A model generated the notes under the pieces. It saw only the letters and a program-made list of their open reading frames with translations. It searched no databases and had not been told where the DNA came from. Position numbers and translations under genes: made by a program. From Symbiotaphrina buchneri (lineage: Eukaryota > Ascomycota > Symbiotaphrinales > Symbiotaphrinaceae), in the NCBI GenBank assembly GCA_001599915.1, contig BCIG01000022.1, positions 248,001-312,000 of the forward strand: DNA of 64,000 nucleotides. The letters run 5' to 3'. Shown piece after piece: positions 47,396 through 62,204 of this stretch; the first letter of the stretch is position 1; every line of letters begins with the position of its first letter.

Positions 47396-50018
47396 ATGAA
47401 GGGCGGCGGGCTGTGTAGAATACAGCTGCGCTCCTTGCAGGGCCTTTGTTCTTCTCTCTCGTGTCGTCAGGGCTCCCTTAGAGCTCAAAGATGCCTTTCG
47501 ACCATCTCTCCTCGAACTCCATTTCCTGCTCCCAAAGTCCGCCGGCCATCGGAACCAAGAAGGTTCCAGTCCGGTGCAGCTGCTGCCGTGTGAGTCTATC
47601 TCTGAATCTGGTCTCTCGCTTTGTGCTAATCCTTTAGGCTTGAGCAAGCAGCCGAACCAGAAAACCTGGCGCAAAAGACCATCATAGAGAATCTGGACCC
47701 TTTAGAAGCTGCAAGACTCTCCAAAATTCGCAATATTGGTATAGCTGTATGTGGACACATTTCCTGTGTGCTTGGGCAATGGCTGACTGGTCAGGCCCAC
47801 ATTGATAGTGGAAAGACTACAGCCACGGAGCGCGTTCTCTTTTACACGGGTCGAATAAAATCAATACACGAGGTCAGAGGCAAAGATGCGGTGGGAGCAA
47901 AAATGGACTCAATGGATCTCGAAAGAGAGAAAGGGATCACCATTCAGTCGGCCGCGACATTTTGTGACTGGATCAAGAAGGAAAATGGGAAGGATGAGAC
48001 ATATCACATCAACCTAATCGACACCCCTGGGCACATTGATTTTACAATCGAAGTGGAACGCGCTTTGAGAGTCCTGGATGGAGCCGTCATGATCTTATGC
48101 GCCGTCTCCGGAGTTCAGTCTCAAACGATTACTGTGGATCGGCAAATGCGACGATATAACGTTCCTCGAATATCTTTTATCAATAAGATGGATAGAATGG
48201 GCGCAAACCCTTTCAAAGTGATCGATCAAATAAATCACAAGTTGAGAATACCAGCAGCAGCTGTGCAGGTTCCAATTGGGGCGGAAGACGAATTCAAAGG
48301 AGTCGTCGACTTAATTCGCATGAAGGCTATCTATAATGAAGGTTCTAGAGGGTATATGGAATCCGGTTGCGTGTCGTAGGAGATTGACTGACTTCTTAGT
48401 GAAACCATTGTCGAAAGGGATGAGATTCCGGATAACGTCAAGCAGATCGCCGAAGAAAGACGAAGGATGTTGATTGAGGCTTTGGCTGACGTGGATGAAG
48501 AAATAGCGGAGATCTTCCTCGAAGAACAGACTCCAAGCCCGGAACAGATCAAAGCAGCTATTCGCAGAGCTACCATAAGTCTCAAATTCACGCCGGTCTT
48601 CATGGGTTCTGCGTTGGCGGACAAAGCCGTCCAACCGATGTTGGACGGTGTGTGCGATTTTCTTCCGAATCCGTCAGAGGTAGAGAATCTGGCTTTGGAT
48701 AAAAGAAGGGCTGAAGCTTCTGTGAAACTGGTTCCCTATAATTCACTTCCTTTCGTTGGGCTTGGTTTCAAATTGGAAGAGAGTAATTTCGGCCAGCTCA
48801 CGTATATCCGAGTCTACCAGGGAAGCTTAAAGAAGGGAATGACCGTCTACAACGCTCGAACAGACAAAAAGGTCAAGATTCCAAGGATTGTTCGAATGCA
48901 CTCCAATGAAATGGAAGAAGTGCCTGAAATTGGAGCTGGTGAAATTTGTGCGGTCTTTGGTGTCGATTGCGCTTCTGGCGATACATTCACAGATGGTGCT
49001 TTGGGCTATACTATGGTATGTTGGGCGGTTACTTGTGGCTCAACCATTGCTAATGGATAGACTTCCATGTTTGTCCCGGAACCCGTCATCTCACTTTCCA
49101 TCAAACCCAAACATACCAAGGACAGCGCAAACTTTTCCAAAGCAATGAACCGTTTCCAGAGGGAAGATCCAACCTTCCGTGTCCATGTTGATCAAGAAAC
49201 CTCGGAAACAATCATCTCCGGAATGGGTGAACTACATCTTGATATTTACGTTGAACGGATGCGACGAGAGTACAACGTCGATACAGAAACAGGTCAACCG
49301 CAGGTAGCCTATCGTGAAACGATCACGCAAAAGGTGAACTTCGACCACCTCCTGAAGAAGCAAACGGGCGGTGCCGGAGATTATGCTCGTGTCATTGGTT
49401 GGATGGAACCAACCGGTTCCTTGGAAGACAACCATTTTGAGCAACAAGTCAGCGGTGGGTCCATTTCAGAGAAGTTCTTATTCGCATGTGAGAAGGGTTT
49501 CTATGCAAGTTGCGAAAAGGGCCCTCTGCTTGGACACAAGGTTTTGGGTACTAGCATGGTGATCAATGACGGTGCTACTCATATGACGGATTCCTCGGAA
49601 ATGGCCTTCAAAATCGCGACTCAACAAGCTTTCCGGAAGGCTTTCATGGAGGCCAAACCTCAGGTTCTTGAGCCTCTAATGAAGACCACCATTACCGCAC
49701 CCAATGAGTTCCAGGGGAACATTGTCGGTATCTTGAACAAACGGAACGCCGTAATAAATGACACCGAGATCGGTCCAGAAGACTTCACATTGTATGCAGA
49801 TTGCAGCTTAAACAGCATGTTTGGGTTTTCCACCCAACTTCGAGCTGCTACACAAGGCAAGGGAGAATTCTCCATGGAGTTCAGTCACTACTCTCCGACT
49901 CCTCCGCATTTACAGTGTGTATCTCCTGCGAAACCTGGTGATACACTCAATGCCAACACTCTGTAGGAAAGAACTCGTGGCGCAATATCTCAAGGCCCAA
50001 GCCGTGAAAAATAAATAA
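47396..50018 (+). CDS. MEF1: Mitochondrial elongation factor G1
   Basis: GTPase that drives translocation in mitochondrial translation. Spliced length 793 residues; introns 47590-47637, 47747-47794, 48352-48399, 49016-49060 and 49915-49966. The first 45 residues are Arg/Ser-rich, suitable as a presequence. GTPase motifs: [19 protein letters not shown] (intron 2 splits the P-loop), [16 protein letters not shown] and [10 protein letters not shown]. Domain II has [20 protein letters not shown]; domain IV has [19 protein letters not shown] and domain V ends with [20 protein letters not shown]. The tail [13 protein letters not shown] comes from a 52-base last exon. EF-G2 is excluded by the overall motif set. 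It borders the AT-rich island. Confidence 0.96.
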
Positions 50019-50311
50019 TGTTACATTATCATGCAATTATGGGATGGTTCCAGGTATTATACCCTGGGCAATCATCGGATATTTTGCTTCGCATCTTTCT
50101 GGCGAATATGGGTGTGGAATTTGTATACTACTCAAGAGTAATCCATTGTCATTACACGTCCTAATGTTCATCCTGAGAAAATTTGACCGAAAAACATTTC
50201 ATTGTTCTATTCACCCATGTAGACAAGCTTGCAAGTAATCATGATTACTTGTCATTGGTATGGTTTACCAACCAAGCACTAGCTATGGCTTGGTGTTAAC
50301 ATTGATACCAG
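50019..50311. other. Left margin of the AT-rich island
   Basis: Falls from MEF1 into the repeat island. It holds a perfect 20-base palindrome at 50232-50251. From about 50244 it resembles a worn terminus of the second hAT-like subfamily (TGTCATTGGTATGGTTTACC and following). Confidence 0.5.
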
Positions 50312-50913
50312 CAGGCTTGCCGTTGGTATGGTGTGGTATGGTATTTTAACTTTTTAAGCTTGTCCATCAAGAAACTTGACTATATGTGGTAGTTCAGACC
50401 CTTAGTACCAGATACCACTAGTTATGAATACTAATACTACCACCAAGTATTCATTGTGTATTACTTATACTGTTTACTGAATGTTTACTAAGTGTTTAGT
50501 AAACAACTTTAAGCAAAACCTAATTTTATCTTAGTGAATAATCAACATTTTAATATAAAAAAACATGGTCATATAGCAAATTCTTTGCTAAATAATACAC
50601 TGTTTGAAATTTTAAAATCTGATTAGGAATGGCTGAGATATTAGTATTTTCTACCTATAACCCTAGTTGTAAGTCCTACATTGGTCAAGAACTACATGAT
50701 AACAACATGTTGGAGGTGCTGAAAGATCTTGAGGTCTGAACTTCATTGTAGGTTGGTCAGAATACAAGATTATACAAAATATGATTGTATTCCAACGGAC
50801 CTGTCTCTTTGGGTTTAGTCAGGCTTGCTGTTGGTATGGTATATACCACTGAATACGAATATACCACACCGGTGCTATATATGATCTGGTATCGAATTTT
50901 AATACTAGTAGTA

Positions 50914-51298
50914 CTGTGGTGGGGAAGAAGGCGCTCCATTCTTTTTGCAGCAGCTAAGTGATGCGGCCTGGGTCAAAGCCGGAGCGGAACAATGTTTTTC
51001 CAGCGCTTTGCGCTCGCGGTGATATCTTCTCGTCTTTAGCAGTTAGGTAGAGAGTTTACACACCAGTCAGTGAATTCTAGACCCTTTTCTGCAGGGTTTT
51101 GTGCCATTCACATAGGAGTTTATATTATGCCGTCGCGGTGAGTTATCTATATGTTTTGAGCCGCTTAGAGGCTCTGTTTTTCGCTAGGTTTATATGTTTT
51201 CATTGCGTTGTGGTGGTGATACCCTGCAGCGCGTCTCCCTACCTATTCTCCTACCCGATTCGGTGGCTATCCACCTACCCCCAACTACCCCAGAACAG
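50914..51298. mobile_element. TA-flanked MITE, 385 bases
   Basis: Interrupts the 50820-52946 copy. Ends are CTGTGGTGGGG and CCCCAGAACAG, an imperfect terminal inverted repeat. It is flanked by TA at 50912-50913 and 51299-51300; the duplicated sequence could extend to AGTACT. The interior is clearly GC-richer than its surroundings. TA duplication fits a Tc1/mariner-type MITE. No coding capacity. Confidence 0.7.
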
Positions 51299-51427
51299 TA
51301 CTTAGTCATAATACCATATTCTACCAACACTAAATGTGTTATAATACCAGATCACTAGATTAAAAAGATAAGATAAGAAAATTTTTTCTTTTAGAATTAC
51401 CATTTTTAAAAGGGGTATAGAACTAGA

Positions 51428-52296
51428 CAGGCTTGACGTTGGTGTGGTGTGGGTTGGTTTTTGGCCTCCTTAAACCCAACCACCAAGACCCAGAGGTTGG
51501 TGTAGTTTTTCAAAAAATTTACCAAAAACCACCGGTTTTTGGTTCGGTTTTTAACCAATAACCAGATGACGTCATAAGTTTTTCCGGCCGGAATTGCTGT
51601 TTTTGGAAGGGGTATAGAACTAGAGCTCGGCAAGTTCCGTTCGTTTATTTATAATAATGTACTATACCTAATTGGGTTTAGTTTACGAGGTGGCTTGCAT
51701 TAGTGTACATTAGTTTGCATTAGTATGCATTAGTGTGTTTCACCAATTCTTAGTGCTTATAAATACAAGGTAAGCTAGGTAGAAAGAGGCAGGTCGGTTA
51801 GAATACGATCGTATTTCGTATTTTTTGAATTCTAACTGAGCTGCTGTCCCAAGTCCTTTCAGCACCCCCAGCTTGTTGCTATCCTATACTTTGTGGCCAC
51901 CCTAGAACCTAGGGGTAGGGTTACAGGTAGAAAATGATGATATCTCAACCGTTCCTAATCGGATTTTAAAAATTCAAAAACAGTATTATTCAGCATTAAA
52001 TTTGTTATATAACGATGTTTTTATTATTTTAAAAGGTTGATTATTCATAGAAATGAAATTAAGGTTTTGCTTAAAATGCTTACTAAGTACTTATCTTATC
52101 AGATCTTATCAAATAGTACCGGAAAAATGTTTTTCCTAGTTGCAATTTGGTTTTTTGGTTTTTTACCAACCCAGGGAAAAACACCATTACACCAAACCGG
52201 TTGGTGGTCTGGTGTATGATCTTTACACCAACCCGTACTTAGCGCCGGTTTGGTAAACCACACCAACTGGTAAACACCATACCAGTGGCAAGCCTG
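51428..52296 (+). mobile_element. hAT-like non-autonomous element, subfamily B, intact ends
   Basis: Starts CAGGCTTGACGTTGGTGTGG and ends CATACCAGTGGCAAGCCTG. Flanked by perfect 8-base duplications GAACTAGA (51420-51427 and 52297-52304). The core (about 51590-52075) is shared with the other copies, but the outer roughly 165 bases on the left and 200 on the right are unrelated to subfamily A apart from the tips. It sits inside the 50820-52946 copy. GC content is higher than in the outer layers, indicating a younger insertion. Confidence 0.9.
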
Positions 52297-53315
52297 GAAC
52301 TAGAGCTTGGTAAGTTATATAACTATTTTTATAATAACAGGCTATATCTAATTAGGTTTAATGTACAAGGTAGCTTGTATTAGTATGTATTAGTGTGTAC
52401 TAGTATGTATTAGTATGTTTTACTAATTGTTAGTGCTTATAAATATAAGGTAAACTAGGTAGAAAGAGATAGATCAGTTAGAATACAATTATATTTCATA
52501 TAATCTTGTATTCTAACTGACCTGTAAGAAGTTTAGACTTTAAGCTCTTTTAACACCTCTAATATATTGTTATCATGTAGTTCTTAGCTACTGTAGGACT
52601 TAGCAGGGAAAATGTTAATATCTTAACTATTCTTAATCGGATTTTAAATTTCCAAAAGGGTACTACTTAACAAAGAATTTATTATATAACCATGTTTTTT
52701 TATATTAAAATATTGATTATTTACCAAGATAAAATTATGTTTTATTTAAAGTTACTGACTAAACACTTAGTAAACATTTAGTCAACTATATAAGTAATAC
52801 ACAATGAATAGTTGATGGCAGTATTTGTATTCATAACTAATAGTATCTAGTATTAAGGGTTTAAACTACTATATATAGTCAAGTTTCTTGGTGGACAAGT
52901 TTAAAAGGTCCAAATACCATATTATATCATACCAACAGCAAGCCTAGGTTTAGTTAACCTTGTATTTATAAACACTAACAATTAGTAAACCATACTAATA
53001 CAAACTAATACTAATGTACATTAATACAAGCTACCCTGTATATTAAACCCAATTAGATATAGTTTGTCACTGTAAATATAGTTATAGAACTTGCCAAGTA
53101 CTAGTTCTATACCCCTTTTAAAGCGGTAATTCCAAAAGCTTTTTTCTTATCTTACCTTTTTAAGCTAGTAATCTGGTATATACCATATTTAGCGCTGGTA
53201 GAATATGGTATTATGACTAAGTACCACTGGTACTAAAATCTGATACCAGACCATATTTAACACCAGTGTGGTATATTTGTATTCAGTGGTATATACCATA
53301 TCAACAGCAAGCCTG

Positions 53316-53998
53316 GGTAGGTAGGTAGATAGCTTAATAGTTTGATAACTAATAATTACAGTTAATAGAGTTTAAATAAAATGTTAGACCAGGTTCTTAT
53401 AACCTGTTAAAATAAATTGCTGTTTAGATTGTTTGACTTTCCAAATTAGGTTATGACTAGGTATCTATATACTAGATGTTAAAATAGTAAGCAATAACAA
53501 GCACTACTATCTGGAAAGCTTTAGAAACCACAGTAGGGCGTGAATAAGGAGCATGGCAAAAAGCCAAAAGTCCATGGAAACCCATAGAAGCCTATAGAAG
53601 TTTCTAGAAGCCTATAGAAATTCCTGGAAGTTTCTAGAACATTCAATATGCTTTGTAATCAACAGATGACCAAGCATTTGTAAGCATTATAAAGCATTGG
53701 TAATCAACAGATTACAAAGCATGCTAGAACATTCCAGCTGTAAAAATTATCTCCTATTTACATCTATAAAAAAGGCATAAAACCTCCGTAGATAGAAAGC
53801 AATTCAATCAGCATTCACACCTGTTTCTACATTCACACTGTTCCAAGCTGTATTCCTTCTGCCATTATACTTTATTTACACTAGAAACCTATAGTTAATA
53901 TATAGAAATACAGGTAACTAGTATCTATACAGGTTTTAAAATTAATATGTTCAATATTATAAAGGTTTTAATAAAGTTATTATTTCTAATATATTATC
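53316..53998. other. AT-rich spacer between the two transposon nests
   Basis: Holds the first solo LTR (53477-53880). The remainder is AT-rich sequence with no recognised feature. Confidence 0.5.
53477..53880 (+). mobile_element. Solo LTR of an LTR retrotransposon (fossil)
   Basis: A 404-base repeat with TG...CA ends, flanked by an exact 5-base duplication CTAGA (53472-53476 and 53881-53885). A TATA-like box (TATAAAAAAGGC) lies near 53767. A second member of the family is at 54848-55254. No internal coding region remains, so it is a solo LTR left after recombination. Copia or Gypsy cannot be told from the LTR alone. Moderately old. Confidence 0.85.
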
Positions 53999-54477
53999 TA
54001 GGTTTATTATTAGTATATATATTTTGTTAGTTATAAATATATTATATTAATATTAAATATAAATTAATATTAACTTTTAATACCAATAGTATTAATTATG
54101 ATATTATACTTTACCAATGTTAAATATAGTATATACTAAATTATCAAGTTATTAAAAAATAAGATAAGATAAGAATTTTTTTAAAATTACTATTTTAAAA
54201 AGGGGTATAAAACAATAAAATAATACTTATCAAGTTCTATAACTGTATTTATAATAACAAGTTATGTTTAATTAGGTTTAATATATATAAGTTCATATTA
54301 GTTTATATTAATATATTTTACTAATTATTAATACTTATAAGTTTAAGGTTGATTAAATATAAATAAATAGGTTAGTGAAAATATGATTATATTTTACATA
54401 GTTTTATATTTAACTAAACTATTATTTTAAACAGGCTTGCCATTGGTATGTTATATATCATTGAATACAAGTATACC

Positions 54478-55298
54478 CAGGCTTGCCATTAGTATGGTGT
54501 AGTTTGGTTTTTAGCCTCTTTAAAGCCAATTATCAAGATCAACAGGTTGATGTGGTTTTTTGAAAATTTTATCAAAAACTACTGGTTTTTAGTTTAGTTT
54601 TTTTTTTACCAATAACCAAATGATCTTATAAGTCTTTCTGACTATAACTGTTGTTTTTGAAAGAGGTATAGAACTAAAGCTTGGTAAGTTCTGTTTGTCC
54701 ATTTATAACAATGTACTATACCTAATTAGAGTTAGTTTACAAGGTAGTTTGTATTAGTTTGTATTAGTTTGTATTAGTGTATATTAGCTTGTATTAGTAT
54801 GTATCAGTGTGTAATAGTATGTTTTACCAATTGTTGGTATTTATAAATGTTAAAATAGTAAGCGATAACAAGCACTACTATCCTGGAAAGCTCTAGAAAC
54901 CATAGTAGGGCGTGAATGTGGAGTGTGGCAAAAAGCCAGAAGTCCATGGAAACCCATGGAAGCCTATAGAAGTTTCTAGAAGCCTATAGAAATTCCTGGA
55001 AGTTTCTAGAACATTTAATATGCTTTGTAATCAGCAGATGACCAAGCATTTGTAAGCATTACAAAGCATTGGTAATCAACAAGATTACCAAGCATGCTAG
55101 AACATTCCAGCTGTAAAAATTATCTCCCATTCACATCTATAAGAGAGGCGTAAAACCCCCAGGTAGATAGTAAGCAATTCAATCAGCATTCACACCTGCT
55201 TCTACATTCACACCGCTCCAAGCTGTATTCCTTCCGCTATTATACCTTTTCACAATAACTACAAGGTAAACTAGGTAGAAAAAGACAGGGGTTAATTG
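54478..55298 (+). mobile_element. hAT-like element, subfamily B, 5' half
   Basis: Starts CAGGCTTGCCATTAGTATGG and follows the subfamily B left end (compare 51428) and then the shared core. It is interrupted by the second solo LTR and breaks off near 55298, where a reverse copy begins. Its 3' half may be the segment at 56982-57327, since lengths sum to nearly a full element, but about 100 bases would be lost. Confidence 0.65.
54848..55254 (+). mobile_element. Solo LTR, second member of the family (fossil)
   Basis: A 407-base repeat highly similar to that at 53477-53880, with TG...CA ends and a near-identical 5-base flank (ATAAA/ATAAC). It is inserted into the core of the 54478 hAT-like copy, so it is younger than that copy. 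The TATA-like region is near 55137. Solo LTR with no internal part. It appears less worn than the first copy. Confidence 0.8.
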
Positions 55299-56136
55299 TA
55301 GGCTTGTTGTTAGTATGGTGTAATATGGTATTTTAACCTTTTAAGCTCGCCTGTCAAGAAACTTGACTATATATAGTAGTTTAGACTCCTAGTACCAGAT
55401 ACCACTAGTTATGAATATAAATACTACTGTTAAGTATTTATTGTACATTATTTATACTGTTTAATAAGTACCTAGTAAGGAACTTTAAGCAAAACCTAAT
55501 TTTATCTTAGTAAATAAACAACATTTTAATATAAAAAACATGGTTATATAACAAATTCTTTATTAAGTAATACCCTTATTGAAAATTTGAAATCCAACTA
55601 AGAATAGTTAAGATATTAATATTTCCCCTGTTTCTAAGTCCTATAGTAGCTAGGAACTATGTGATAACAACATGTTAAAGGTGTTGAAAGAGTTTAAGGT
55701 TTGAACTTTTTACAGGTTAGTTAGAATACAAGATTATATAAAATATAATTGTATTCTAACTGACCTATCTCTTTCTACCTAGTTTACCTTGTATTTATAA
55801 GTACTAATAATTAGTAAAACATACTAATACACACTAGTACATACTAATATATACTAATATACACTAATACAAGCTGCCTTGTATATTAAGCCTAATTAGG
55901 TATAGTTTATTACTATAAATATAACCATAGAACTTACCAAGCTCTAGCTCTATATCCCTTTTAAAAATGGTAATTCCAGAAGAAATTTTTTTCTTATCTT
56001 ATCTTTTTGATTTGGTAATCTGGTATTATACTACATTTAACACTGGTAGAATATGGTATCATGACTAAGTATTACTGGTATCAAAATTCAATACCAGACC
56101 ATATTTAACACTGGTGTAGTATATTTATACATGATG
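55299..56136 (-). mobile_element. hAT-like element, reverse copy lacking its 5' tip
   Basis: Starts TAGGCTTGTTGTTAGTATGG, the complement of the family 3' end, and runs the full body in reverse to about 56136. It lacks the last 25 or so bases of the family 5' end and abuts the intact copy at 56137. Many C-to-T/G-to-A differences from the intact copy. No coding capacity. Confidence 0.75.
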
Positions 56137-56981
56137 CAGGCTTGTCACTGGTATGGTATATACCACTGAATACGAATATACCATACCGGTGCTAAATCTG
56201 GTCTGGTATCGAATTTTGATACCAGTAATACTTAGTTATGATACCATATTCTACCGGCGTTAAATGTGGTATAATACCAGATCACCAGATCAAAAAGATA
56301 AGATAAGAAAAAAAACTTTTGGATTTACCATTTTTGGAAGGGGTATAGAACTAGCACTCGGCAAGTTCCGTTACTATATTTATAGTAGTAAACTATACCT
56401 GATCGGGTTTAATGTACAAGGTGGCTTGCATTAGTGTGCATTAGTCTGCATTAGTGTGTTTCACTAATTGTTAGTGCTTATAAATACGAGGTAAGCTAGG
56501 GAGAAAGAGGCAGGTCGGTTAGAATATGATCGTATTTCGTATTTTCTTGAATTCTAACCGAGCTGCTGTCCCAAGTCGTTTTTGCACTTCCAGCTTGCTG
56601 CTATCCTGCAGTTCCTGGCCACTGTAAAACCTAAAAGGTAGAAAATGATGATATCTCAACCATTCCTGATCGGATTTTAAAATTTCAAAATGGATATTAT
56701 TCAGCAATAAATTTGCTATACAACGGTACTTTTATTATTTTAAAAGGTTGATTATTCACATAGATAAAATTAAGTTTCGCTTAAAGTTGCTTACTAAGCA
56801 CTTACTAAGCGCTTAGTAAACAGTATAAGTAATGTACAATGAATACTTGGTGGTAGTATTCGTATTCATAACTAGTGGTATCTGGTACTAGGGGTTTGAA
56901 CTACCACATGTAGTCAAGTTTCTTGGCGGGCAAGCTTAAAAGGTCCAAATACCATACCATACCATACCAACGGCAAGCCTG
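56137..56981 (+). mobile_element. hAT-like element, subfamily A, most intact copy (845 bases)
   Basis: Reference copy for subfamily A: starts CAGGCTTGTCACTGGTATGG and ends ACCAACGGCAAGCCTG. Sub-terminal GGTAT repeats follow each tip. The core holds three TGCATTAGT units near 56427-56458 and an inverted repeat GGTTAGAAT/ATTCTAACC near 56517-56562. The flanks do not form a clean duplication, consistent with local deletion. The longest frame inside is about 60 codons, so any transposase must be supplied in trans. Confidence 0.85.
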
Positions 56982-57764
56982 GCCTGGTCTCTGGCCACTG
57001 TAGAATCTAGGAGCTAGAAAATGATGATATATTAACCATTCCTGATCAGATTTTGAAATTTTAAAAAGAGTATTATACAGCAGTAAATTTACTATACAAC
57101 GGTATTTTTATTATTTTAAAAGGTTGGTTATTTATAGAGATAAAATTAAGTCTCCCTTAAAGTTGCTTTCTAAACATTTAGTAAACAGTTTTAGTAGTAC
57201 ATAATAAATACTTAGTAGTAGTAGTATCTGGTACTAGGAGTTTAAACTACTATATGTAGTCAAGTTTCTTGGTAGACAAGTTCAGAAGGTTAAAATACCA
57301 TATTATATTATATCAAGAACAAGCCTGATCTTAAGTTCTTTTAACATTTTTAACTTATTATTATCTTATAGTTTTTAATTACTATAAAACCTAAGGTTAG
57401 AATTATAACTAGAAAATAATAACGTTTTAACTATTCCTAATTGGATTTTACAATTTTCAAATAGATATTGTTTAATAAAGAATTTATTATATAACAATGT
57501 TTTTATTATTGTAAAAGGTTAATCATTTATTAAGATAAAATAACATTTTATTTAAAGTTGTTTGATAATCATTTAATGATTGTTCAATAAGTTGTTAGTA
57601 ATATAATTTAGGAATATATAATAAATACTTAATAGTAGTATTTGTATTCAGAACTAGTAGTATTTGATATTAGGGGTCTGAACTACCATATATAGTTAAG
57701 TTTCTTGGTGGTCAAGCTTAAAGGGACAAAATACCATATCATACCATACCAACGGCACAGCCTA

Positions 57765-57957
57765 GTAATGCTTAGATGTTAAACTATGATATCACTTGCA
57801 AGCATACATGGATGTAGGACAAGACTGTCAACCGGCAAGGGTAATTTGTTCCTCAGCCCAAGGCCCCAAGCTCTCACCACAACCGACTCATTCATTGAGC
57901 AGACCATTTGGCAAAGCCGAAGGCAGCTTCAGTAAGAGATGTCACTATAGCCATCTT
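57765..57957. other. Right margin of the AT-rich island
   Basis: Composition returns to gene-like values over about 190 bases, up to the 3' end of the ABC transporter gene. Confidence 0.5.
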
Positions 57958-60900
57958 TTAGCCGTCAGACATCCATAGTCCACCCATCAACAACCTCCTT
58001 AATCGACCATCCTTCCGTAATAAAAGATCCGTATAAGTCCCACTTTCCACCACCCGACCTTGTTCAACAACGATGACATTCCCACAAGTCTTCATCATCT
58101 CTATATCGTGGGTGATTGCTAGAACGGCAATGCCCTCCCCGCCGATCCGTATGACGATGTCTCTTATCACCCCCGCACTTTCCGCATCTAAAGCGCTCGT
58201 AGCTTCGTCCAACACCAGGAGCTTGGGCCTCCTTATAAGTGCCCTGGCGATAGCAATTCGCTGTGCTTGTCCTCCGGAAAGGCCCTGGCCCCCTTCACCT
58301 ATCAACGTACCGTATCCAGACGGGAGAGACATGACGAAGTCATGGATGCCGGCTGACTTTGCAGCGACCTGTATCGAGGCCGGAAATGCAAGCGGAGAAA
58401 GTGGTGGCAGGCCGTAAGCAATGTTTTGCGCAACAGAAGCGGGGAAAAGTAGTGGGGCCTGCGGAACTATGGCAATTAGTGAGCGAAGAGTTGGGATATG
58501 GACCTCTCGAATATCAACTCCGCCGACAACGACGGACCCGGCGGCGTCTGGACAACAAAGTCCTACGAGAAGAGAGGCAAGAGTTGATTTCCCCGACCCT
58601 GAAGGACCGACAACAGCAGTTGTTGAGCCTGACGAAAGCGTCAAAGATATGTTTGAAAGAGCCGGGATAGGCTTCCTTGAGGGATAAGTGAAGACTGTAT
58701 TGGTAAAATGTACCGGCAACGGATCTTTCAAGCGACAATTTCCTTTCCACTCAGAGGAACGATGAGGAGGAAGGTGAGACAGGCGAAGCAGTCGTGTCGC
58801 TGTATCTCTGGAAGATGATATTTGAGGGACTAGACCGTCAGCTTGACCACTGGTAAAAATTTGGAAGACTCACTGAAACTGATGATGGCGTTCGCGTTCG
58901 AAATACCGAACAACAACATGGTGAAGACGGTGAGAATATCCGACGATGAATATTGCATTGATGAAGCCAACACCGCGCCATAGTAGAAAATAACGGCTGT
59001 CATGATTTAGTCGATAATCTTCAAATGGATGACTGACTCACCTGTGACGAACAATACGGCAGAGTCCGAAAGGCCGAAAAAGGTGCCCGAAAATGCGGCC
59101 CTCTTGAGTCCAACCCTCAATCCTCTAGAGGTTGCTTTGACGTACTTTGTCCGAAAGTACTCCTCCAAGGTCAAAGATCTTATTAATTTAACATTGGTGA
59201 AGGTATCTGCCAAGATGGATCCCGATAACTGCGCCGCATCGTTACTCTTTCCTTCCCAATGCCCACTGACGTATTCGAAGGCCCTCGTGATGGCATATAT
59301 CAAAGGAGCCGTTGCCAAAGCGATAATAGTAAGTTTCCAACAGACCAACAGTGACCATGTCACCGTCATCGCCATCATTGCCATCGCAACAAATATGAAC
59401 CCAGCAAATCTTCCTACGAGATTCTTCATCTCTTCGGCGTTTCTGTCCAGGCATTCCGTCAATTGAGATAGCTTATTTTTATCTCTGTCGAACCAAGCTC
59501 GAGGTTGCAGTAAGATACGCCGAAAAGCTTCTACTCGTATACCATCGACCCAAGATTGTGCGGAAGACTGGAGAAAATAGTGCATAAAATAGCTTGCAAC
59601 AGCATCGCCCACAGCAATCACAAGAATGATTAGCGACCATTTCAGGGCTTGCCTTGACCGGTCCGCTTGAAGAAGAAATGTGGCCAGTAACTTAGAAAAC
59701 ACCCATGAGAAGATCGGCGTGGCTGCGGCATGTAAAAGTGCTGCAGAAAAACCGAGGAGCAGAACGAAACGCTCTCTTCTCGTTAAAGTCGGCCATAGCG
59801 TTCCAAGAATCTTCTTTATTGGTGCAATCCGCCGTGCTTTTTCCTCATTCGTTAGCTGTCTGCGACGGGAAAAGAATCGACGGCCAGTGTCGTGTCTCAG
59901 ATTTGTAGGAGGAGCACTGGTAGCTCTCTGTCTGACCCTTTTCACACCACGGTTGATAATTGTCCTTCTTCCAGTAGCTTCAACCAAACCCACACTTGGC
60001 CGTCGTAAAGCACTTTGTAATGGAGATATCGGCGTCTGCGGCATGAACAATGACGCCCTTGCCGGACTATATGATGGTGTCAATGGCGATAAAAGACCGT
60101 CGGATGGTCTCCGCTGGGCTTTTTCTGAAGGGTCAATAGCAAATACCGATGGAATGTATCGAAGCCTTTGCGGAACTTCGATATTGAGCGATCGTTGGGA
60201 TTCCAGAGATGCCCTCGCAGATGCCGTAGGAGAGACCGCGGGCTCGTGCATTGTGTCGCCAGTTACGCGTGTCTCACCAATCGAAGGTACCGAATCCTTT
60301 CTTGAAAAAATCGCAAATGCATCGCAACCTTCAAGAGTATTTCTGTAACCCGCTTGAGCGACCTCAGCTTTATCCAACACGTACACGAAATCTCTTGAAC
60401 GTATCTGTGAGACATCGTGAGTGATGATGATGGTCGTCTTTCCCTTTCTCCAATCCCTTATTGCATCCATTATCAAGGATTGGCTGATAGCATCCAATGC
60501 ACTGGTCGACTCATCGAGTATTAGTATGGGAGTATCTCGAAGTCTAGCACGAGCTATGGCAATCCTTTGCCTTTGTCCACCACTGACGGAAATCCCGCCA
60601 TTTCCGACCAGGGTATTCAGACCGTCCGGAAGGTTCGACACCATCGTCTGCAGGAGCGCAAACTCGGAGGCAGACTTGATCTCATCGACACTGGCCGATC
60701 CCTTCCGCCCAAGTGCAATATTTGTTGCAAGAGTCTCGTTGAAAAGGGCGCTCTGTTGTTGTATCAAAGTAACGTTACACCGAATCCAATCAACGTCCAA
60801 CGTCTGGACAGGATTCCCATCAATGAAGATCTCTCCACTTGCCGGCCGGTATAGATTGAGCAATAGGTTTCCCAGGGTACTTTTGCCGGAACCGCTCCTC

Positions 60901-62204
60901 CCAATAACGAACGTCGTTTCTCCGGCCCGAAACAACATCGTAGCATCCTTCAACGCCAGCTGGTCAGGCCGAGCTGGATACGCAAAAGAGGCCTAAGCCG
61001 TTAGCCTCGAAGAGCAAGAAGACTACAATCTTACATTTCGAATTTCAATATCCCCTGTACATGATGTCGGTCTTTTACTCCCAAACATCCTGGTCGTCTT
61101 CCTTCCTCTGTCCACTTGCTCGACAATGGCCTTTAGCGTCGCACCTGCGGCTCTTCCTCGCTCAAGGACTATCATCTGGGGCAGGATTTCTTCGATAGCC
61201 TGAGTAGCCATTAAACAAGCCCAAAAGGTTGTCAGGATGTCTCCAGCAGATTTCTTCCCAGATCCAGTAAGCGTACTTCCGTACCAAAAGCCTTGGATGA
61301 ACATTCCCAAAGTCATGATGCGCACGAATCCGATTTGTAGAGCATTTGCATGAGCTTGGACGAGATAAAAACGTGCGGCTTCTTTAATATGCATAGTGTA
61401 TTGTTGAACTTCAAACGTCTCGCCATTGAAGCACTTGACCGTTTCTATAGCTGAGATGGCACTGTTTGCATATTTCGAAGCCTTGTCGAGTCGTTGTTCT
61501 TGACCCTTGATACTTGGTTGCATTCGAGACGAAATGGCCAAAAGTGCAAGTCCTGTCAAGGGTACAGTCGCAAGGGTGACGAGGGTCAAGTTCCAGCAAT
61601 AGTAGAATGCTATCCCAAGAGATGCAACAGCGGTAACAAGATATTGAACAAGAAACCCTAGTGGTTGTGACGTCGCTATCTGGAGCTCACGGATTTGTCT
61701 GTTATTGTCAGCAGATTCGGTAATCTCTGGTGATACTTACGTTTGAAGCCGAGGCAGAAGCGCCCCGATTCCATTCTTGCGCATATCAAACCATTCCATA
61801 TCTCTAGCCAGCAAGGCCGTGAAAACTCTCTCCCGCGCACTCTTGGCTTGTAGTTCGCCGAAAACCAGCCATAGCATGAAATGACTTCCGTTCAAAAACC
61901 AACTGCTGCAACCTATTCCAACGAGTGCGATGCAATAGATAGAGACCCGACTGACAAGTTCCGATCCATCTGCACGATCTCCCCCAAAGCTTGCAAATTG
62001 ATCAAAGATGTCTCCGAGGAGGACCGCCGTGACCGGTAGCAAAATGCCGGATGCTGCGGCTAGAATGAAGCCTAATATTAAAGGAAGTGTATGTTCTCGA
62101 CTTGAAAAGTGGAAGAGCGATATCCAAGATACTTTGCCCACCGAATCCGAGGGTTCTGACTTGTCCATAGCCTTTTCGGCCATGGTCTTTTGCTTGATAA
62201 CCAT
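57958..62204 (-). CDS. Full-size ABC-B transporter, Ste6-type (peptide pheromone or drug exporter)
   Basis: Spliced length 1357 residues, order TMD1-NBD1-TMD2-NBD2. Introns: 61699-61740, 60993-61034, 58997-59041 and 58830-58873. NBD1 has Walker A GRSGSGKST (about residue 406), signature VSGGQRQR and Walker B ILILDESTSALD. NBD2 has Walker A GPSGSGKST (about 1142), signature LSGGQAQR and Walker B LLVLDEATSALD. A long basic linker joins the halves (GRRTIINRGVKRVRQR). The ESTSALD variant in NBD1 and the long linker recall Ste6-like a-pheromone exporters; other ABCB drug pumps remain possible. The N-terminal ATG at 62204 is followed after 35 residues by the first TM helix. The 3' end is 190 bases from the transposon island. 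Confidence 0.88.

Follow-up and report, generated by a model that had tools for sequence, protein, structure and literature searches.

Hermes is an autonomous element of insects. Its target sites are duplicated over 8 bp with the consensus nTnnnnAn, and the individual sites given in the published description include GTGTGAAC and GTGTACAC (PMC2803484). Mar, a hAT (Buster) MITE of Drosophila, is described as short and non-coding, with tips of the form CAG(G/A)GGTAGGC and 8-bp duplications; its target is given as nnnTAnnn, which is the Buster consensus, and a relic transposase is present (PMC3517528). In fungi, the AT-isochores of Leptosphaeria maculans are described as gene-poor DNA, composed of truncated and RIP-degenerated elements, that lies between gene-rich DNA and occupies 36% of the genome (PMC4210507). 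Clustered insertions are reported to be preferred by the DcSto MITEs of plants (PMC3695323), whereas BniHAT comprises multi-copy hAT MITE families of plants, described in a paper in which the term nested insertion does not occur (PMC7385995). Search listings of the open-licence literature contained no paper devoted to hAT MITEs of lichen-related ascomycetes.

The family described here, from the genome of Symbiotaphrina buchneri, resembles Mar in the features of that element cited above, being a short non-coding element with CAG tips and 8-bp duplications, but differs from the Mar so described in that nTnnnnAn, and not nnnTAnnn, is enriched at its flanks and in that no transposase was found. 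The two Hermes sites quoted above resemble the GTTnnAAC tendency seen here, although in contrast to Hermes a non-coding fungal family alone was seen. As in the published description of the L. maculans isochores, the surrounding DNA is an AT-rich, gene-poor mosaic of truncated repeats, here with RIP-like decay, set between gene-rich DNA; unlike the compartment of that description, the island under study, the only one of which the edges were seen, covers ∼7.5 kb, and a hAT MITE is the main identified component, at least in stretches chosen by matches to the family or its associated repeats. DcSto, as described, is Stowaway-like rather than hAT and has a plant host, with clustering being common to it and the present family, while the BniHAT families are different families with plant hosts that share a multi-copy hAT MITE nature. 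A short element nested in itself within an AT-rich island is of a kind already familiar in fungal and plant genomes.

Results

Organisation of the locus

The window, i.e. the whole stretch of 64,000 nucleotides that was analysed, comprises bases 248001–312000 of contig C22, and the genome that was searched is a 23.38-Mb, 82-contig assembly. Among the 120 matches listed, out of 1507, for an Rtc5-like protein encoded in the window, the nearest named relatives come from lichen-forming and allied ascomycetes (Pleopsidium flavum at 65%, followed by Loxospora, Sarea, Peltula and others), which points to a filamentous ascomycete that is probably close to the Lecanoromycetes. Positions 50312–57800 of the window form an island with a GC content of 31%, flanked by DNA of 48–53%, in which TA/AT is 1.33 as opposed to 0.62–0.68 in three stretches outside, and (CA+TG)/(AC+GT) is 0.84 as opposed to 1.25–1.26 outside. 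Only seven ORFs of at least 60 amino acids are present between 50200 and 57900, all of 60–75 amino acids, and scans of the window against Rfam (gathering threshold) and for tRNAs gave no match. On one side of the island lies an ORF (49067–49966) that, from its translation, we take to be an exon of a mitochondrial-type elongation factor G, and on the other an ORF (59007–60938) that is presumably ABC-transporter-like, again as judged by translation.

Direct reading of the sequence bore out the claim of the initial annotation that three hAT-like copies are nested three deep, with B in A and A in the reversed copy C; A carries two inserts (Table 1). The duplications that had been assigned to B (GAACTAGA) and A (GGTTTAGT) both match at 8/8 positions. 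Copy C, the flanks of which are GATACCAG and GGTAGGTA, has no readable duplication. It had also been stated that each copy measures about 863–869 bases once its inserts are removed, and this is the case for B (869 bases) and for C, in which 869 bases remain when A and a single duplication are taken out; these align in reverse, end to end, with the 845-base copy at 56137–56981 (copy D) at 79.7% identity. It is not the case for A, since removal of B and one duplication leaves 1250 bases, owing to an additional 383-bp TG...CA insert at 50915–51297 that had gone unmentioned; removal of this piece as well leaves 867 bases if both GTAC motifs are kept, or 863 with one. The order of insertion in the window was C first, then A into C, followed by B and the solo-LTR-like element into A. 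To the left of C, a weak B-type match adjoins (50255–50302, 77% over 48 bases, E 3e-4).

Table 1. Features of the island in window coordinates; A, B, C and D denote copies of the hAT-like family.
Feature	Position	Strand	Remarks
Copy C, left flank GATACCAG			Without partner
Copy C, left part, outermost hAT-like copy	50312..50819	-	Ends with GGTTTAGT; 50312-50810 corresponds to D 845-368; left tip CAGGCTTG
Left target duplication of A, GGTTTAGT	50812..50819	.	8/8 against 52947-52954
Copy A, left part, up to LTR-like insert	50820..50914	+	50820-50915 corresponds to D 1-96, 88.5%
Solo-LTR-like insert, 383 bp, TGTGGT...AGAACA	50915..51297	+	GTAC at 50911-50914 and 51298-51301
Copy A, middle part	51298..51427	+	Ends with GAACTAGA; matches D 93-218
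Left target duplication of B, GAACTAGA	51420..51427	.	8/8 against 52297-52304
Copy B, innermost, complete 869-bp subfamily-B element	51428..52296	+	Tips CAGGCTTG/CAAGCCTG
Right target duplication of B, GAACTAGA	52297..52304	.	
Copy A, right part	52305..52946	+	Right tip CAAGCCTA, one base off
Right target duplication of A, GGTTTAGT	52947..52954	.	
Copy C, right part	52955..53315	-	Right flank GGTAGGTA; 52951-53315 corresponds to D 362-1
Second LTR-like repeat L2, ∼400 bp	53477..53873	-	
Second partial nest	54432..54787	+	A-type tip 54432-54477, B-type end 54478-54787 directly after
L2 copy, 407 bp	54848..55254	-	Directly after hAT fragment
Another A-type copy, almost full length (bases 39-844)	55300..56125	-	
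Copy D, reference A-type copy, 845 bp	56137..56981	+	Flanks ACATGATG / GCCTGGTC, 4/8, no matching duplication
Two further A-type fragments	56991..57763	+	56991-57327 and 57410-57763

Two LTR-like repeats accompany the family in the island. The insert at 50915–51297 has the TG...CA ends, the 4-bp GTAC duplication and the two-LTR relative that would be looked for in a solo LTR, and a genome search with 50912–51299 gave 27 matches, itself included, many of which are short. The two-LTR relative, at C4:504682–507504, has LTRs that are 95% alike over 382 bases; this 2.8-kb element lies between two pieces of a single hAT copy, the own 8-bp duplication of which (ACTTCAAC) is still perfect, and its internal part is short, suggestive of a non-autonomous retroelement. 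The second repeat, L2, is 407 bp long with ends TGTGAAAAGG...TTTAACA and has 55 matches in the genome, itself and fragments counted. It often sits inside copies of the hAT family, and around the L2 repeat at C13:549551–549966 the host-copy alignments share 5 bases. A longer ancestral A-type form, which was considered on the basis of a ∼410-bp insert at base 454–459 in two copies, was discarded, the insert being L2, which is present at many other places.

Size and structure of the family

Genome searches with B (51428–52296) and D (56137–56981), the two copies that the initial annotation had put forward as queries, confirmed a dispersed family, with at least 102 and at least 118 matches, respectively; these counts include the queries themselves and fragments, and are lower bounds, 40 of 75 candidates having been scored for B and 40 of 80 for D. 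In the window, 12 occurrences of the tip CAGGCTTG were counted where 2.04 are expected, a number reached in none of 100 shuffles, and across the genome the tip pattern with up to two mismatches has 145+128 matches, compared to 25+27 for a reversed-pattern control. Together with the window, the stretches fetched around matches make up 49 merged pieces totalling 250,168 bases. Within these, 224 tips were found, of which 193 run into a family end and were retained, the other 31 being dropped, and the 193 ends fall into 41 clusters, seven of them single ends. The terminal inverted repeat is imperfect, ∼20 bp long and begins with CAG, in keeping with the CAG or TAG start of the short repeats of hAT elements; the base profile of the tip was derived from 201 tips with no more than six mismatches to CAGGCTTGCYGTTGGTATGG, and so leans towards that sequence. 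With lengths of 845–869 bp, ORFs of at most 75 amino acids, more than 100 matches (fragments counted), terminal inverted repeats and a GC content of 32–38%, the elements have the make-up of MITEs.

Copies B and D have their tips and a core in common (B 163–666, D ∼186–668), but hardly their arms. Beyond the 20-bp tip, the 3' end of B is nearer to the 5' end of D in 129 of the 150 copy pairs compared, and the 5' end of B nearer to the 3' end of D in 102 of the 150, pairs that are not independent of each other; the two cores share one orientation. The swapped pairing has mean scores of 9.0 and 7.6 and the straight pairing 3.3 and 5.0, but shuffled sequences reach 7.0 and 8.5. Bases 1–37 and 812–869 of B appear to be swapped around the common core relative to the ends of D. 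These data are no more than suggestive of an end swap between the two subfamilies.

Target duplications and target sites

The 8-bp flanks of 226 left–right end pairs match completely in 13 cases, at seven positions in four and at six in a further four. For the 147 pairs of an earlier set, eight duplications were perfect at a length of 8, against ∼0.004 expected, and none was perfect at lengths of 4–7, 9 or 10. Pairs matching at seven or more of eight positions numbered ten at register 0 in this set, as opposed to no more than one at any of eight shifted registers, while perfect matches after a register shift numbered 0, or 1 at one of the eight shifts. Amongst pairs of full-length size (n = 23), eight have 7–8 matching bases, one has six and 14 have four or fewer, indicating that many ends have lost or exchanged their flanks.

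The composition of the flanks departs from background most strongly at −1 to −3 and −6 to −9, in a palindromic pattern with a GTTnnAAC tendency; outside this pattern, position −13 also departs clearly and positions −5 and −12 more weakly. The Ac-type motif nTnnnnAn is found in 44 of 192 flanks, compared to a mean of 24.7 and a maximum of 33 in 50 shifted controls, whereas the Buster-type nnnTAnnn is not enriched (18 of 192; control mean 26.4). The T2/A7 bias is not striking in the 13 perfect duplications taken alone (10/26). At C13:547470–548346, the flanks are ACTTTAGG and the inverse of ACTTTAGA, an inverted rather than a direct near-duplication. Taken together, the 8-bp duplications, the CAG tips and the palindromic nTnnnnAn target support the proposal of a hAT-like non-autonomous family, and the putative assignment to a hAT-type MITE family with Ac-type target choice holds on structure. 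It is on structure that hAT membership rests, because no transposase gene was found.

Searches for a transposase

According to the initial annotation, no transposase gene is present and the driver lies elsewhere. Genome searches with PF05699 and PF14372 gave no matches, although the same families matched in no control genome either, and two typed hAT domain queries, run against the genome without a control, also gave none. One of the typed queries did retrieve 100 hAT-like fragments from a protein database, with E values down to 4.5e-30 and mostly with PF05699, indicating that the query is sound for hAT; those fragments that carry a species name are from Penicillium. When the 100 fragments were compared with the fetched stretches by tblastn, the best match had an E value of 0.011, which is not meaningful. 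No transposase was found in the genome by these searches, which had no working control, and the gene may be diverged, mutated or lost. A literature search on the tip CAGGCTTG returned, among the matches listed, only titles unrelated to transposons.

Insertion into family copies and islands

Two explanations for the nesting had been offered, namely a target preference of the family for its own sequence and insertion into already silenced DNA. With regard to the former, 74 of the 193 ends (38%) adjoin family DNA, as classified from flanking bases 10–29, while family sequence accounts for 47.9% of AT-rich DNA across the stretches that were fetched; the remaining 119 ends have other flanking DNA, i.e. 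family flanks are fewer than expected (binomial p 0.008). L2, an unrelated LTR-like repeat, lies next to family DNA at 45 of its 73 ends (p 0.0009 in Fisher's test). These values were obtained after L2 places had been added to a smaller and biased set, whose loci had been selected by matching the hAT family or LTR1; that set gave 71 of 174 ends for the family and 33 of 45 for L2. Since the ends are not independent and the loci were chosen by repeat matches, the data are taken to indicate that self-preference is absent, rather than that family DNA is avoided. Self-targeting was accordingly rejected, both by family coverage and by L2 as a within-genome control.

The 74 ends map to host copies on the coordinates of D (55 ends) or B (19 ends). 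Joining the two ends of single insertions reduced the 55 to 50 events, and simulation was conducted with this D set. Eight pairs of events coincide, compared to 1.4 expected under uniform simulation and with none of 4000 runs reaching eight, although some coincidences proved on inspection to be off by one base or uncertain in alignment. Pairs within 2 bases number 15 against 7.2 (p 0.010), within 5 bases 31 against 15.8 (p 0.0008) and within 10 bases 43 against 30.1 (p 0.02). This excess over uniform chance indicates that insertion inside copies is non-random, which a site motif could explain. Bases 359–366 of D were hit three times and bases 289–296 twice, in different islands, and the elements concerned differ in type or orientation, indicating separate events. 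Sequence-directed hot spots inside host copies are likely, and the repeated use of host sites fits a target motif that recurs in every copy. A group of five junctions at D 145–156 has no paired duplications and may represent breakpoints of another kind.

The fetched islands are RIP-like mosaics of several repeats, LTR-like ones included, and 162 of 192 flanks have a GC content below 42%, in a set of loci picked by repeat matches in which islands are over-represented. The second explanation, insertion into already silenced DNA, is compatible with these data, but is inseparable here from selection having removed genic insertions. Because clusters recur on many contigs, the islands were also considered as centromeres; this reading was set aside because single contigs hold several clusters (e.g. 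C2, at ∼127, 142, 243 and 460 kb).

Sequence decay

Differences among 25 copies of A type (the nest copies A and C, stripped of their inserts, and 23 others) number 2612, of which 1708 are C-to-T or G-to-A changes, under a reference rule biased towards C and G. By context, the C-to-T rate is 0.38 at CG, 0.22 at CA, 0.16 at CT and 0.14 at CC. RIP is recognised by C-to-T changes in repeats, a preference for CpA and raised TpA/ApT. The indices of the island, 1.33 and 0.84, fit, and CA is above CC and CT, yet CG is higher still. As the rate is highest at CG and not at CA, decay of methylated CpG may add to RIP, and the decay is RIP-like with a CpG part.

Copy B has a C-to-T load of 0.053, the lowest of six complete B copies, as is expected for the last insertion, whereas its 46 other differences are not the lowest among the six. 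An attempt to date the nest by mutation load failed: the C-to-T load of A (0.332) exceeds that of its host C (0.228), and mutation load is therefore no clock here.

Discussion

We favour, with a probability of roughly 0.85, the view that a MITE family of the hAT superfamily has accumulated in AT-rich islands with RIP-like mutation, and that nests have arisen by landing on older copies. The anatomy and order of the nest, the 8-bp duplications, the target motif, the mutation bias and the mosaic make-up of the islands are direct observations. A family of ∼850 bp with no coding capacity seen, tips CAGGCTTG... and two subfamilies would be moved by a hAT transposase, either encoded elsewhere or since lost, that cuts at (G)TTnnAA(C) sites with duplication of 8 bp. 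Insertions would survive mainly in small AT-rich islands, where the element would land on whatever the island holds, be it older family copies, LTR-like repeats or unidentified DNA; nests would result because older copies of the family were among the DNA landed on. The islands would in turn be mutated by a C-to-T process that is RIP-like and may be RIP itself.

The nests could instead reflect a true preference of the family for its own sequence. The nests in the window and the repeated hits on the same host bases (D 359–366 and D 289–296; eight pairs against 1.4) speak for this, but a 38% share of ends on family DNA that is 47.9% of what is available, together with the 45 of 73 ends of L2, makes it improbable, and coinciding sites, some of them uncertain in alignment, are expected in any case if favoured 8-mers recur in every copy. 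Whether a P-like or Merlin-like transposon, rather than a hAT element, moved the family is a question raised by its 8-bp duplications and by the genome searches with hAT queries, which found no hAT gene but had no working control; we know of no such elements in ascomycetes, and since CAG tips and an nTnnnnAn target are hallmarks of hAT, we consider this explanation very improbable indeed.

Two other explanations concern how the islands were built. The transposase, or a complex containing it, may have been directed to heterochromatin, i.e. to RIPed, H3K9-methylated DNA, in which case clustering would reflect targeting and not survival. The low GC content of 162 of 192 flanks and the presence of LTR-like repeats in the same fetched islands lend this some plausibility, yet the same pattern follows if insertions in genes are selected against, and loci chosen by repeat matches over-represent islands, such that we regard it as possible but not the probable case. 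Somewhat more doubtful is the proposal that much of the island structure stems from recombination between inverted copies, by inversion and deletion, as opposed to repeated transposition. It would account for the 14 of 23 full-length-size pairs with four or fewer matching flank bases, and for copies flanked by non-contiguous pieces of a host copy, as in the island on contig C21. Copies A and B of the window and 11 other perfectly duplicated elements are, however, clean insertions, and a search of the 193 ends for duplications exchanged between different elements gave four extra perfect matches, no clear excess over the 0–3 found at five shifted offsets. More speculatively still, and unlikely on present evidence, nesting combined with recombination between inverted copies may generate mobile subfamilies: B may have come from tips that captured a core of opposite orientation within a nest, and islands with reused host sites would then be self-feeding insertion traps.

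Self-preference has already been made unlikely by the within-genome control, and the family is otherwise a matter of ordinary fungal repeat biology. It nevertheless allows insertion order, target choice and RIP-like decay to be read off in a lineage of lichen-related ascomycetes, and provides a compact test case for whether DNA transposons cluster in silent DNA through targeting or through survival.
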